Assembly: GCA_913062625.1 (NCBI GenBank)
Contig: CAJXWP010000022.1
Span: 1-36,313 of the forward strand
Direction: 5' to 3'
From: an uncultured Haliea sp.
GTDB taxonomy: Bacteria; Pseudomonadota; Gammaproteobacteria; Pseudomonadales; Halieaceae
DNA length: 36,313 nucleotides
The translations under genes were made by a program, and so were the position numbers. Within the stretch, counting starts at the first letter, position 1. Every line of letters begins with the position of its first letter. The notes under the pieces are model-generated. The model saw only the letters and a program-made list of their open reading frames with translations, did no database searches and had not been told where the DNA came from. Of this stretch, positions 17,245-21,470 are shown piece by piece.

Positions 17245-18510
17245 TTAGTTAGAAGCGTCTTGGTCGGGTAACAAGGCTTCGCCACGAATAAGATCCGCTA
17301 GCGTTTCTCGGGGTCGCACCAGATGTGTGCGATCAACGTCCACCATGATTTCTGGAGCTCGACCACGACTGTTATAATTAGAACTCATGGTAAAGCCATA
17401 CGCACCCGCTCCAAACATCGCCAGAAGATCGCCCTGAGCCAGAGTCAGTTCTCTTCCTTTTCCAAGGAAATCACCGGTTTCACACACGGGTCCCACCACA
17501 TCCCATTGCGCCTGTTGTCCCTCTGCATTTTTTTCTACGCGCTGGATATCCATCCATGCTTCATAGAGCGCAGGGCGAAGCATATCGTTCATTGCCGCAT
17601 CGACCAGCGCAAAGTGATGATCAGGCGTAGATTTAAGATACTCCACTTGCATGACCAGCACACCCGCGTTGGCCGTAATAGAGCGCCCTGGCTCAAACAT
17701 TAGCTGTACATCGCGGTCGGCCAGTACCCGCCTAATTTCAGCAATGTATTGCCCGATGGAGGGCGGCTCCTCGTCGCGGTAATTCACCCCCAGCCCGCCG
17801 CCCAAATCCAGATGGCGAATGACGATGCCCAGCTCCGTCAGTGTGTCTACCAGTTTCAGCAGGCGATGCAGAGCGTCGATAAACGGACTGACTTCGGTCA
17901 GTTGTGAGCCTATGTGGCAATCCAGCCCAACGATCTGCACGTGCTCTAATTGTGCGGCATGCTGGTATACCCGCAGCGCTTCATCGATCGTCAACCCGAA
18001 CTTGTTTTCGCGCAGGCCGGTAGAGATATACGGATGTGTTTTCGCATCCACATCAGGGTTTACCCTGATGGAGATGGGCGCAATCTGGCCGCGCTGGCCG
18101 GCAACGGTGTTAAGCACTTCCAGTTCTGCTGCTGACTCAAGGTTGAAGCAGTGGATGCCCAGTTCCAGGGCCCTCGCCATCTCTTCAGGCTTCTTGCTGA
18201 CACCCGAAAATACGACCTTTGATGGGTCTCCGCCAGCGGCGACGACGCGTTCCAGTTCACCACCCGAAACGATATCGAAGCCTGCGCCTAGTTTAGCCAG
18301 CACATTGAGCACGGCAAGATTAGAGTTGGCCTTCACCGCATAGCAAATCAGGTGCTTGGCACCTTCAAGCGCTTGGCGGTATTCCATGAAGGCATCTTCC
18401 AGCGCTGATCGGGAATAGATATAGCAGGGTGTGCCGTGAGTGGCAGCGATTGCACTGACTGCAACATTTTCCGCGTACAGGCTGCCCTCACGATAAGTAA
18501 AATAGTTCAT
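17245..18510 (-). CDS. lysA: Diaminopimelate decarboxylase
   Basis: PLP-dependent enzyme making L-lysine from meso-diaminopimelate. 421 residues, alanine-racemase-like barrel then beta domain. The PLP Lys is in CYAVKANSNLAVL. HIGSQLTEVSPF, LDLGGGLGVNYRDEEPP and FEPGRSITANAGVL bind the phosphate. GPVCETGDFLGKGREL supplies the substrate Cys-Glu from the partner subunit, and GAYGFTMSSNYNSRGRAPE closes the site. It lies 14 bp after lptM, an arrangement usual outside the enterobacteria. Confidence 0.97.
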   Translation of the reverse strand: MNYFTYREGSLYAENVAVSAIAATHGTPCYIYSRSALEDAFMEYRQALEGAKHLICYAVKANSNLAVLNVLAKLGAGFDIVSGGELERVVAAGGDPSKVVFSGVSKKPEEMARALELGIHCFNLESAAELEVLNTVAGQRGQIAPISIRVNPDVDAKTHPYISTGLRENKFGLTIDEALRVYQHAAQLEHVQIVGLDCHIGSQLTEVSPFIDALHRLLKLVDTLTELGIVIRHLDLGGGLGVNYRDEEPPSIGQYIAEIRRVLADRDVQLMFEPGRSITANAGVLVMQVEYLKSTPDHHFALVDAAMNDMLRPALYEAWMDIQRVEKNAEGQQAQWDVVGPVCETGDFLGKGRELTLAQGDLLAMFGAGAYGFTMSSNYNSRGRAPEIMVDVDRTHLVRPRETLADLIRGEALLPDQDASN

Positions 18511-18524
18511 CAGTTAGCCTCAGC

Positions 18525-18680
18525 TCAGGACGCTTTATTTTGCGGTTCAGCGCCGTCGACCGGTGAGGTGGGGGGGAGTGGGGCTTCTTCGGACGGCGAA
18601 TATAACGCCCCTGTCTGCCCGCACCCGCCGAGGACGGCAATAGTGAGTGCAATTAGCATGAAGATATGGGAATAAGGCAT
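18525..18680 (-). CDS. lptM: LptM-family small lipoprotein (LPS translocon assembly)
   Basis: A 51-residue gene found by translating the gap upstream of lysA. A signal peptide MPYSHIFMLIALTIAVLGGC ends in lipobox LGGC, and the mature start CGQTGALYSP matches the LptM/YifL pattern (CGxxGxLYxP). The tail is short, Pro- and acid-rich. LptM assists disulfide maturation of LptD with the Bam complex in E. coli. CTGGAG lies seven bases before the ATG, and a TATAAT lies further upstream at 18709. It leads the operon with lysA and dapF, as in other gammaproteobacteria. Confidence 0.9.
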   Translation of the reverse strand: MPYSHIFMLIALTIAVLGGCGQTGALYSPSEEAPLPPTSPVDGAEPQNKAS

Positions 18681-18690
18681 GGCGCTGCTC

Positions 18691-18781
18691 CAGTTTACAA
18701 TGGCGCAAATTATACCGCCCGCCGGTCAGCGGCGCTAATCGCCCTTATTATTGAATTGTGCACAATTTCGTGAAAAGCTTC
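18691..18781 (+). repeat. Direct repeat copy A (in the lptM promoter region)
   Basis: Aligns without gaps to 20060-20150 at about 68 of 91 positions (hand count). Both copies begin with CAGTTTAYAATGGCGCAAAT and share an unbroken core CCCTTATTATTGAA. Copy A carries the lptM -10 box. Its counterpart of the cyaY coding start is absent: similarity stops just before the base that would begin cyaY. Confidence 0.85.
18709..18714 (-). promoter_or_regulatory. -10 box of the lptM-lysA-dapF operon
   Basis: A perfect TATAAT on the minus strand, 28 bp before the lptM ATG; the start point would be near 18702. No good -35 box is 17 bp upstream (TAGCGC). The box lies inside repeat copy A, and copy B has lost it. 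Confidence 0.55.
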
Positions 18782-19064
18782 ATTATTGTCTGGCTCCTAT
18801 AGCCGTATCAGTAAAAAAAGCGGTTCTTAACCGTTCATTGGTGAACCCCTGCGCAGCGGCTTGGCCCATGAGGAGTTTTTTATTGGCATGCCTGCTCATT
18901 GAATGCTGTTAAGCTGGCTTCGCTTGAGATGTAAGGACGCATTGCTAGCGCATCGAGTGGGGGCACCACCCATAAAGGTGTTACAAAATTATTTGTCGGG
19001 CGTCGGATTCTAGCACCCTACCTGGCGCAATAAAAAAACACATAAAGAAAAAGTGGAACGAAAA
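18782..19064. other. Non-coding stretch between repeat copy A and the LLM gene
   Basis: 283 bases with no credible coding frame on either strand. It contains an imperfect hairpin (GGTTC at 18822 pairing with GAACC at 18843-18847) and an A-rich run just before the LLM start. Part of it must be the LLM promoter region, but no clear -35/-10 pair was found. No leftover cyaY coding sequence could be recognised. Confidence 0.5.
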
Positions 19065-20069
19065 ATGGCAGACTTACCCCGTCAGAGAGTGGCGATGACG
19101 ATACCCGGGCCAACGGCAACCGTGGCTGATTCCATCGCTTTGGCCCAACGCCTTGAGCAGCTAGGCTGGGACGATATCTGGCTGGCCGATGCAGGCGGAC
19201 TGGATGCATTAACCCTGGTGCCCATGCTACTGGCCGCTACGAAAAACACCCGCATTGGTACCGCAGTGGTGCCTGTGTTCACACGCACACCTGCCGTTCT
19301 CGCTAGCACTTTCGCTGTTATTAGTCAGGCCTACCCTGGCCGTTTTGTTCCAGGCCTGGGTACATCCAGCCACGCTATTATCAATAACTGGCATGGCCTG
19401 AGCATGGAGAAACCGCTGACTCGAATCAAGGAAACCATGGCCTTATTGCGCTCTATGATGGCCGGAGAGAAAACCGCGTTTGAAGGCGAAACACTGCGCA
19501 GCAAAGGCTATCGCCAGGCGCCGACCAGCAGCCAGCCTATTTACCTAGCAGGTTTGAGACCCAAAATGCTCGAAACTGCTGCGGAAATTTCCGACGGCGT
19601 CATTTTGAATCTCTTTCCCCGTTCTGCCCTTCCTAAAATAATGGAACACATCGCCATCGGTGCCGAGCGTGCGGGTAAAGATCCTGCCTCCGTTGAAGTC
19701 GTGTGCCGCCATATGATGTGTCTTACGGATGACAAGGCGCTGGGACGCGCAGCGTTCCGAGCCGCTTTCGGGCCTTATTATGCAACACCGGTCTATAACA
19801 AATTTCTTGCTTGGGCAGGCTATAAAGACACCGCCAATGAAATAGCAGAAGGCTTTAAAGCCAGAGACAGGGAGAGAACATCAGCGGCTATGACCGATGA
19901 GCTGGTCGACGAAATTGCTATCATCGGCAATGAAGTTGAATGCCAGGAGCTCATTCGTGAGTACGCTGCTGGTGGCATTCATACGCATGTTATGGCCCCC
20001 ATGATTCCCGATCCGCAGATCATAGAAAAGACCGTGATGGCCTTTAGCAAGGAGCGCTTCAGTTTATAA
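19065..20069 (+). CDS. LLM-class (luciferase-like) flavin or F420-dependent oxidoreductase
   Basis: 334 residues of the bacterial luciferase-like TIM-barrel superfamily. RVAMTIPGPTATVADSIALAQRLEQLGWDDIWLADAGGLDALTL is the N-terminal barrel. ATKNTRIGTAVVPVFTRTPAVLASTFAVISQAYPGRFVPGLGTSSH is the family core, with PIYLAGLRPKMLETAAEISDGVIL later. Members reduce or oxygenate substrates with FMNH2 or F420H2; the cofactor cannot be decided here, and gammaproteobacteria often lack F420. ATG 19065 is taken as start (GGAA eight bases upstream). The last codons (FSL-stop) lie inside repeat copy B. It separates lptM and cyaY, which are normally neighbours, so it is probably an insertion. Confidence 0.85.
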   Translation: MADLPRQRVAMTIPGPTATVADSIALAQRLEQLGWDDIWLADAGGLDALTLVPMLLAATKNTRIGTAVVPVFTRTPAVLASTFAVISQAYPGRFVPGLGTSSHAIINNWHGLSMEKPLTRIKETMALLRSMMAGEKTAFEGETLRSKGYRQAPTSSQPIYLAGLRPKMLETAAEISDGVILNLFPRSALPKIMEHIAIGAERAGKDPASVEVVCRHMMCLTDDKALGRAAFRAAFGPYYATPVYNKFLAWAGYKDTANEIAEGFKARDRERTSAAMTDELVDEIAIIGNEVECQELIREYAAGGIHTHVMAPMIPDPQIIEKTVMAFSKERFSL

Positions 20070-20150
20070 TGGCGCAAATGAATACGTCCGCTGGTAAGCG
20101 GCATGAACACCCCTTATTATTGAAGGTTGCACACTTTAGTGGAAAAAATC
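20060..20150 (+). repeat. Direct repeat copy B (end of LLM gene and cyaY leader)
   Basis: Ungapped partner of 18691-18781, about 75 percent identical. It includes the last three codons and stop of the LLM gene and runs to three bases before the GTG proposed as the cyaY start. The two copies are 1369 bp apart, in the same orientation. Confidence 0.85.
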
Positions 20151-20152
20151 CT

Positions 20153-20476
20153 GTGATAACTGAATCAGAATTCAATGAGTTGATAGAGCATACTTTTGAG
20201 GCATTGGAGGAGGCTCTGGATCAGATTGATGCGGATATCGACTATCAGATGTCCGGCAGCGTGCTCACCGTCGAATTCGACAACGACACGAAACTGGTGT
20301 TCAGCCGTCAGCCCCCGACACGGCAGCTGTGGTTAGCTGCGCGCGCCGGGGGTTTTCACTTTGCCTACGATAAAGCTGTCGGCGACTGGCGTGGAACTCG
20401 TGATGGGCAGTTGTTCCGACTTTTTGTGGTTGATCAGATGAAGATCCAGGGGGGCATTACTTTTGAATGGCGTTGA
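20153..20476 (+). CDS. cyaY: Iron donor / frataxin-like protein CyaY
   Basis: Bacterial frataxin, an iron-binding regulator of Fe-S cluster assembly. From GTG 20153 it is 107 residues, matching E. coli CyaY (106). ITESEFNELIEHTFEALEEALD is the acidic first helix, SGSVLTVEFDNDTKLVFSRQPPTRQLWLAARAGGFHF the sheet, and GTRDGQLFRLF the end. The frame is also open upstream to ATG 20069, which would add 28 residues. That part is encoded by repeat copy B, has no counterpart in CyaY, and its copy-A equivalent contains a stop, so the shorter start is preferred. The ribosome site (GGA nine bases upstream) is weak. Normally it is divergent from lptM; here the LLM gene intervenes. Confidence 0.85.
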   Translation: MITESEFNELIEHTFEALEEALDQIDADIDYQMSGSVLTVEFDNDTKLVFSRQPPTRQLWLAARAGGFHFAYDKAVGDWRGTRDGQLFRLFVVDQMKIQGGITFEWR

Positions 20477-20480
20477 TTTT

Positions 20481-21470
20481 ATGGCCCATGTGCTGCGAGC
20501 ACCGAGAGTCCTAGGACTGCTGGCCATCCTTAGCGCGCTGCCGGTGTCGGCGAGCGAGCCCTTATATGTTAAGAACTTGAGTCCGGTGGCAGGATTGATT
20601 GGCCTTCCCTCCCAGCGAGACGCGCAGGCTACACCGAGTGGTGAGGTGGCGGCGGCACTTTATAGCAGTGTGGCCAATGACTACGTCAACGAGAGCAGCG
20701 ACACTGAATTTCTCAATCTGGATGGGGAGACCCTGCGCGTCGCCCTGGAGTTGCGTTATGGGCTGGCGGAAAACTGGGATATACAGTTAGAAGTGCCTTG
20801 GCTGCAGCAGAGTGGGGGAGATTTAGACGGTGTTATTGATGATTGGCATGATTTTTGGGGAATGTCCGATGGCGGTCGATCTGATGTGCCCAGGGATATC
20901 CTGAATTATCAGTATACCAGCCCAGCGGGTGGTTTTTCCCTGCAGGATGACACCTCTGGCATGGGTGATATTAGCCTGTCCTTGAACCACGTGTTTTATC
21001 AAGATGAGAGTTCTACTGTTAGCTTAGCGTTGGGCTACAAGTTTGGGACTGGCGACGAAGACGACTTTTTAGGCAGTGGTGCCGATGATGCCTTTATTGC
21101 TCTGCGTTTTTCTGGCGCTCAAATGTCGGACCTGCCATTGACCTGGCACGGGCAGGCGGGTTATTTGCGCGCAGGAGATAGCAACTTGCTCGATGGTTTT
21201 CAGGAGCAGAATCTCTGGTTTGCAGGACTCGCGGTAGACTGGCAATTCGCGCAGCGCTGGTCGCTTATTGCGCAACTCGATGGCCATGCAGCTCCCCTGG
21301 ACAGTAGTCTGACTGGCGTGGGTGATGATGCGGTCATGGCGACTTTAGGCACGCGCTGGTATTTCGCGCCACATTGGTCGATAGATTTTAATTTTGTTGA
21401 GGATATTCGCGTTGCAACGGCGCCGGATGTCACATTCCAGGCGAGCCTGCGCTACCGCCCGAGATTCTGA
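20481..21470 (+). CDS. DUF3187-family outer-membrane beta-barrel protein
   Basis: 329 residues with a signal peptide of about 24 residues (MAHVLRAPRVLGLLAILSALPVSA). The body is alternating beta strands with periplasmic-turn acidic loops (LRVALELRYGLAENWDIQLEVPWLQQSGG, SLALGYKFGTGDEDDFLGSG) and ends in an aromatic RYRPRF, the usual C-terminal Phe recognised by the Bam complex. It resembles DUF3187 proteins. ATG 20481 is four bases after the cyaY stop; a TTG at 20463 is an alternative overlapping cyaY. It is convergent with argH. Function unknown. Confidence 0.72.
   Translation: MAHVLRAPRVLGLLAILSALPVSASEPLYVKNLSPVAGLIGLPSQRDAQATPSGEVAAALYSSVANDYVNESSDTEFLNLDGETLRVALELRYGLAENWDIQLEVPWLQQSGGDLDGVIDDWHDFWGMSDGGRSDVPRDILNYQYTSPAGGFSLQDDTSGMGDISLSLNHVFYQDESSTVSLALGYKFGTGDEDDFLGSGADDAFIALRFSGAQMSDLPLTWHGQAGYLRAGDSNLLDGFQEQNLWFAGLAVDWQFAQRWSLIAQLDGHAAPLDSSLTGVGDDAVMATLGTRWYFAPHWSIDFNFVEDIRVATAPDVTFQASLRYRPRF

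Follow-up and report, generated by a model that had tools for sequence, protein, structure and literature searches.

Does a diverged repeat that brackets a gene record the arrival of that gene? The question is raised by a locus in the genome of an uncultured Haliea sp. (G000), where an LLM-class oxidoreductase gene lies between lptM and cyaY and is flanked on both sides by a copy of the same 91-bp leader sequence. The first-pass annotation of this DNA had proposed that the leader was doubled when the LLM gene arrived. We analysed the locus in the whole stretch of DNA that carries it, 36,313 nucleotides in length (hereafter the window), and compared it with 18 genomes of the genus, this one included. 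The order of elements is lysA (minus strand), lptM (minus), copy A of the repeat, a 283-bp gap, the LLM oxidoreductase gene (plus), copy B, cyaY (plus) and a DUF3187 gene (plus), with the following positions in the window:

17245-18510, minus strand: lysA, diaminopimelate decarboxylase (TIGR01048, 523 bits)
18525-18680, minus strand: lptM, LPS-translocon lipoprotein, which stays with copy A (NF047847, 31.6 bits, cut-off 27.7)
18687-18781, no strand: copy A, the left leader copy (alignment and repeat finder)
18799-18937, minus strand: degraded 3' end of an IS91-family (Y2_Tnp) transposase gene (36.1 bits, E 7e-10)
18985-20069, plus strand: relocated native segment with the LLM-class oxidoreductase gene and about 80 bp of its own upstream DNA (PF00296, 224.8 bits)
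20056-20150, no strand: copy B, the right leader copy, joined to the 3' end of the LLM gene (alignment)
20153-20476, plus strand: cyaY, frataxin-like iron donor protein (TIGR03421, 98.8 bits)
20463-21470, plus strand: DUF3187 gene, a conserved neighbour (PF11383, 155 bits)

Against the Pfam family LptM_cons, lptM of the window scores slightly below the cut-off (26.0 bits; cut-off 27.3). The LLM gene likely starts at ATG 19065 and its stop codon is at 20067-20069. By alignment, the likely cyaY start is GTG 20153, immediately beyond the repeat, and the repeat on the cyaY side is therefore a leader. Upstream of this start the cyaY frame stays open as far as ATG 20069; this ATG shares bases with the LLM stop codon (TAATG, window 20067-20071) and would add 28 N-terminal residues to the cyaY ORF; it is possible that this overlap couples LLM and cyaY, or that it is due to chance. 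Copy A has kept a TATAAT on the minus strand (18714-18709) facing lptM, presumably a promoter element, and the same place in copy B reads ATTCAT (minus strand of 20078-20083). Copy A also retains the side of the leader that faces cyaY, which may drive LLM. A consensus promoter scan returned 4 sites against 1.8 expected and was discounted. About 50 bp of the lptM-cyaY leader (window 18721-18770) are well conserved in most aligned genus rows, with the core TTGAATTGTGCACACTTT (in copy A, TTGAATTGTGCACAATTT) and a GTGCAC dyad; this stretch is perhaps a shared regulatory site.

The repeat itself is as the first-pass annotation had described it. Gapless alignment of 18691-18781 with 20060-20150 gives 68 of 91 identical positions, exactly the figure it had reached by hand count, and contains the 14-base identical run that it had noted (CCCTTATTATTGAA). 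Copy A does lie before lptM, and both the LLM stop codon and the cyaY leader are within copy B. The repeat finder paired 18687-18776 with 20056-20145 (90 nt, 77%) and blastn paired 18677-18776 with 20047-20145 (100 nt, 76%, one gap). In its best register (69/91) the repeat is the top gapless 91-mer direct pair of the window; the runner-up reaches 51/91, and the best pairs in five first-order Markov resamplings of the window reach 48-49. A query of this genome with window 18660-18790 returned two matches, both at the lptM-cyaY locus, and the search for further units that had been suggested thus found none. Chance similarity is ruled out by the distance between 69/91 and the 51 of the next-best pair in the window, and a dispersed repeat by the two matches, both local, so that the probability left to either is negligible.

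We then compared the lptM-cyaY joint across relatives. In 12 of the 18 genus genomes lysA/lptM adjoins cyaY without an insert, and lptM itself was detected in 10 of these 12; the claimed adjacency of the two genes in relatives is true of these 12 genomes. Inserts at the joint are present in four genomes, G000, G010, G011 and G003. In G016, neither cyaY nor lysA has a match in the assembly. In G017, two contigs (C96 and C76) stop inside lptM in adapter-like sequence (L032:3075-3120, L054:1-35), which we take to be Nextera adapter, and the joint is probably uninterrupted; its lptM side resembles the left copies of the inserted genomes and its cyaY side the right copies. A wider set of named loci comprised 80 of 393 loci. 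Among the closest 28 (L078-L105), the distance from the lysA start to the cyaY start is 215-433 bp in 24, two are records of the inserted genomes G003 and G011, and two (G010 and G017) have no lysA on the stretch compared. The further 52 comprise 34 loci with 231-425 bp between lysA and cyaY, 16 with 1.4-2.0 kb and two without lysA. About 1 kb of extra DNA lies between lysA and cyaY in 14 Pseudomonas loci (e.g. L115, L120, L136). Flanking direct repeats were found in none of these 14, and in none of the 16 inserted Pseudomonas or Oceanospirillaceae-type loci by blastn at E 0.01, a test that does detect those of G011 and G003; such repeats are thus no general property of inserts at this joint.

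A species tree computed from four proteins in 12 genomes places all four inserted genomes in one clade of five (support 100/100), within which G011 and G003 are grouped (97/99) and the other branching order is not settled by the tree. All four of the inserts in this clade are bracketed by diverged copies of the lptM-cyaY leader. This supports the proposal of a doubling of the ancestral lptM-cyaY intergenic region, with the inserted DNA between the two copies. The other half of the proposal, that the arrival of the LLM gene caused the doubling, is not supported: G010, G011 and G003 contain both copies around other cargo and have no LLM gene there, so that in three relatives lacking the gene at this place both copies are already present, an outcome that the first-pass annotation had itself named as a refutation. 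Thus, the doubled leader existed in the clade without LLM. A second doubling may still have taken place in this genome.

The relatives also show how much was duplicated. The G011 locus consists of lysA-lptM-cyaY', about 4 kb of cargo and then lysA'-lptM-cyaY, with a unit of about 0.5 kb that runs from lysA codon ~40 (in the right copy) to cyaY codon ~32 (in the left copy); the first ~40 lysA codons are thus part of the duplicated unit, the duplicate being seen in L033. The arrangement in G003 is as in G011, but with a shorter right copy. In G010 the left copy ends at the cyaY point of G011 and the right copy starts inside the leader. The left copies of G010 and G011 lose cyaY similarity at identical bases (GACTATCA/G), and in G003 the translated match of the left cyaY' stops two codons earlier and the DNA match fades sooner. 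All these left cyaY' pieces are decayed. Beside cyaY, G003 (L034:3909-4064) and G011 (L033:5657-5812) carry an intact second lptM-like frame of 51 codons. These right lptM copies encode QTRALYTP, and the four left copies encode QTGALY at the same place. Comparison of the two right copies gives pS 0.62, pN 0.24 and a corrected rate ratio of 0.21, values that are signs of purifying selection and suggest that the second lptM is kept in both genomes. Two points speak against this: for these 51 codons pS is close to saturation, and neither right copy has a Pfam LptM match at E 0.001, although the left copy of G003 has one.

The DNA between the copies differs from genome to genome, with three cargo types among the four inserted genomes, one of them shared by G011 and G003. 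The 16.5-kb insert of G010 encodes methyltransferases, a glycosyltransferase with a GtrA-type domain, an acyltransferase and a radical-SAM protein. G003 has a glycosyltransferase, a sulfotransferase and a 755-aa protein without Pfam family, and G011 has a glycosyltransferase and a sulfotransferase (84% and 77% protein identity to those of G003) together with pieces of the 755-aa gene. This 709-755-aa gene (L034:6527-8794, L031:5013-7142) is present in three of the 18 genomes and always at this island: it is common to the G010 and G003 islands, in pieces in that of G011 and absent from G000. A Pfam scan of 14 cargo ORFs (nine from G010, three from G003, two from G011) detected no recombinase; four of the 14 match no family.

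In G000 the cargo is the LLM gene, whose product is well above the PF00296 cut-off (27.9 bits) and slightly above that of TIGR03841 (215.6 bits, cut-off 213.65). Orthologues at 53-91% identity are found in 10 other genus genomes at other loci; in all nine of those with a cyaY match the orthologue is not beside cyaY, the tenth being G016. In three clade members the orthologues are 88-91% identical and lie elsewhere in the genome, by which a foreign LLM gene is ruled out. This genome has a single copy, with the next match at 31%. The segment 18985-20069 aligns to G017:C97 without gaps at 84%, and the block beside the usual place of LLM is 86% identical to G017; as the two values are similar, we regard LLM as a native gene that has changed its place. 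Where the 3' end of the gene runs into copy B there is an imperfect match of 14 bases, here GCTTCAGTTTATAA, the counterparts of which are GCTTCAGCTTTTAA in the LLM gene of G017 and GCTCCAGTTTATAA in the G017 leader. A TauD-family gene whose distance from LLM is 0.6 kb in G017 and about 6 kb in G011 is present in three of the 18 genomes and was not found in this one.

Between copy A and the LLM segment lies the IS91-family relic (18799-18937). We built an IS91 profile from 17 copies and a model from 13 overlapping ones, with the window and G010 junction copies in neither; the 17-copy profile detects the relic with 38 bits (E 1.8e-10), the best of 20 shuffles scoring 5.1 bits. The family was assigned through a PF04986 match of 23.6 bits (cut-off 20.9) on one truncated G011 copy, the window relic itself being very short; two other truncated relative copies have no PF04986 match. 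At its right junction, G010 has the same IS91 3' end fused with the cyaY leader (65 bits); no relic of this kind is present at the locus in G011 or G003. Scoring of 150 of the 470-630 candidates per genome yielded at least 30 relics in G000, at least 13 each in G010 and G003, at least 9 in G011 and at least 6 in G017. At least 71 relics are thus present in five genomes, and 58 of 71 share a sharp end, starting at model positions 1-6. The two junction relics lack this end, the terminal 54 model positions being missing in G010 and the terminal 102 in the window, where the copy begins at position 103. Because both miss the transposon's own terminus, they do not look like direct transposition products. 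No target tetranucleotide next to the sharp ends was seen to be shared when the flanks of 11 copies were inspected by eye. At 30 relics per 3.07 Mb, about 0.004 would be expected to touch the 283-bp gap, an expectation that could be a few times larger given that 150 of the 630 G000 candidates were scored. To our knowledge, rolling-circle insertion by itself does not double its target. Both junction relics have the cargo on the transposase 5' side; here the transposase is on the minus strand and LLM is on its 5' side. IS801 recruits DNA from the transposase 5' side, and most IS801 fragments are concluded to stem from recombination and to act as homology regions (PMC3189936). By analogy, a role for the junction relics as recombination-derived homology regions would fit.

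To follow the history of the copies, a tree of 17 rows was computed, eight of them outgroups (seven of the 12 uninterrupted genus genomes and the named locus L085). Groups recovered were the left copies of G010, G011 and G003 (84/88), the right copies of G010 and G017 (99/96) and the right copies of G011 and G003 (91/88). Copy A of G000 is not placed with the other left copies, and several of its leader sites are of right-copy type. In tests made with this tree, sister status is rejected for the G010 pair (AU 0.009) and not for the G000 pair (AU 0.42); a single group is rejected neither for all four left copies (AU 0.23) nor, by a narrow margin, for the four copies of G011 and G003 (AU 0.08). 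Named trees, chosen after the first tree was seen, were compared on 14 of the 17 rows. The tree with sister copies in every genome fails on 192 leader and cyaY columns (AU 0.003) but not on the 93 leader columns (AU 0.056), and three separate duplications, in G000, in G010 and in the G011/G003 ancestor, are rejected on neither (AU 0.14 and 0.48, respectively). For both copies being ancestral in all genomes, the values are AU 0.10 on the 192 columns and 0.020 on the 93. Placing the G000 pair as sisters within the right-copy group gives AU 0.385 and 0.456, and within the left-copy group 0.008 and 0.016.

The divergence of the two copies had been taken in the first-pass annotation to mean either an old event or a donor from another species. 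Our results favour an old duplication. A distant donor of the duplicated segment appears disfavoured by the decayed right lysA' of G011, which matches its best clade sequence at 86/120 positions against 71/122 for the best full-length outgroup; the leader and cyaY' barely discriminate between donors and are not decisive here (e.g. the left cyaY' of G010 scores 71/88 to the clade and 71/88 to outgroup G015).

What the data show directly is that the leader is doubled, that the cargo varies, that LLM orthologues lie at other loci and that IS91 relics are present; a single ancestral event, its inheritance by G000, the crossover route and any role of IS91 are our inference. The explanation that we prefer, with modest confidence, is one old duplication in the clade ancestor together with the entry of an island, followed by cargo turnover through homologous recombination and IS91-linked movement. 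The 91-bp repeat would then be the remnant of an old duplication of a lysA'-lptM-cyaY' segment (about 0.5 kb in G011). This duplication would date to the ancestor of a small Halioglobus-type clade, and the duplicated DNA would most likely be that of the lineage itself. The doubling would have come with placement of an island between lptM and cyaY, either through single-crossover integration of a circle on which that segment lay, or through a tandem duplication into whose joint the island was then inserted. The two halves would have divided their tasks, the left copy keeping the lptM promoter and gene and the right copy the cyaY leader and gene, and the DNA between them would have become neutral, gaining and losing cargo through homologous recombination via the copies, deletion and IS91-linked movement. 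In G000, on this view, the old island has disappeared and LLM, a native gene, has moved in together with its upstream DNA, beside an IS91 3'-end relic. Counting in favour of one old event are the presence of both leader copies, with differing cargo, in four of the 18 genomes, all in one clade of five, the common end point of the G010 and G011 left copies, the grouping of the G010, G011 and G003 left copies, the cargo gene found in all three of these islands, and the rejection of sister copies both in every genome (on the 192 columns) and in G010. Counting against this explanation are copy A of G000, which does not group with the left copies, the alternative trees that are not rejected, the missing terminus of both junction relics, and G011 and G003, which have no IS91 relic; moreover, because G017, close to G010, may be uninterrupted, a loss in G017 or a later gain in G010 is needed. 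The G000 copies may descend from the old duplication with some gene conversion, or may reflect a second doubling after loss of the island.

The second of these possibilities can be stated as an explanation in its own right, and one that we hold to be a minority prospect: recombination between the copies removed the island from G000 and left one mosaic leader, which the entry of LLM then doubled anew. The right-copy-type sites of copy A, and a 12-base run that it has in common with copy B (AATGGCGCAAAT), are what such a history would leave, the tree with the G000 pair inside the right-copy group is not rejected on either column set, and G017, left-like on the lptM side and right-like on the cyaY side, has the possible look of an emptied site. 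However, gene conversion between the copies accounts for the same sites, and two duplications at one spot are required. The copies also differ by 25%, against 16% for the LLM genes of G000 and G017, and a fresh duplication would therefore still be old, although this comparison is a rough one of non-coding with coding rates. Rather less likely, in our estimate, are independent single-crossover insertions in each lineage, by circles bearing the leader of a related species. Cargo and doubled leader do coincide in all four inserted clade genomes, neither three separate duplications nor, on the leader alone, one per genome is rejected, and the left cyaY' of G010 is as close to G015 as to the clade. 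Yet the left copies of G010 and G011 end at the same point, a cargo gene is common to G010 and G003/G011, sister pairs in every genome are rejected on the 192 columns, and searches of collections of phages, plasmids and viral contigs with our queries yielded no carrier. Specifically, the ~0.5-kb unit of G011 has no match in plasmids, window 18391-18990 has none in phages, and the exact degenerate 26-base leader pattern was not found in viral contigs, a weak negative because the pattern matches just 22 of the 190 loci compared.

A further alternative is an assembly artefact that joined LLM to cyaY. The assembly has 117 contigs, of which the window is one, and contig C59 of this genome, which carries the usual neighbour of LLM, a molybdopterin oxidoreductase gene, ends about 0.8 kb short of the expected place of LLM. 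Nevertheless, two false joints would be needed in a locus whose outer parts adjoin in relatives, the three separate assemblies of G010, G011 and G003 have a similar structure, and short reads would hardly be confused because the copies differ by 25%; we consider an artefact very improbable. A more general and tentative idea, which we put forward as a conjecture that may well fail, is that the lptM-cyaY joint of this clade is a self-made docking site, in which the doubled leader would serve as an attachment-like pair for host homologous recombination, without an integrase. Islands could then be loaded, exchanged and removed, with one promoter kept per copy and lptM and cyaY unharmed, and IS91-family ends would supply cargo.

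Whatever its route, the joint is a slot that a small group of marine bacteria has used more than once for additional genes. It illustrates how a conserved two-way promoter can become a site of variable gene content with no integrase in evidence, through doubling, retention of one gene per half and cargo between the halves. Diverged repeats that flank a gene are thus not necessarily a record of when it arrived. Since close relatives display empty, filled and refilled sites, a few more genomes could suffice to reconstruct the succession of events. Among the papers listed in literature searches, one set does not mention cyaY or lptM and another set does not mention Halioglobus.

Several known systems resemble parts of this locus. 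Like a genomic-island hot spot with flanking direct repeats, it has one joint, differing cargo, repeats at both ends and empty sites in relatives; unlike such a hot spot, it shows no recombinase in the 14 scanned cargo ORFs, and its repeats are long, diverged leaders of protein genes. IS91, IS801 and ISCR are rolling-circle elements capable of one-ended transposition (PMC3189936, PMC13393415). Features in common with them are scattered 3' (right-end) fragments with a sharp end and cargo on the transposase 5' side; the differences are that the junction copies lack the terminus and that the sharp ends have no common tetranucleotide. Finally, although no circle or carrier was seen and tandem duplication plus insertion yields the same order, the arrangement in G011, lysA-lptM-cyaY' followed by cargo and lysA'-lptM-cyaY, is the product expected of Campbell-type single-crossover integration.
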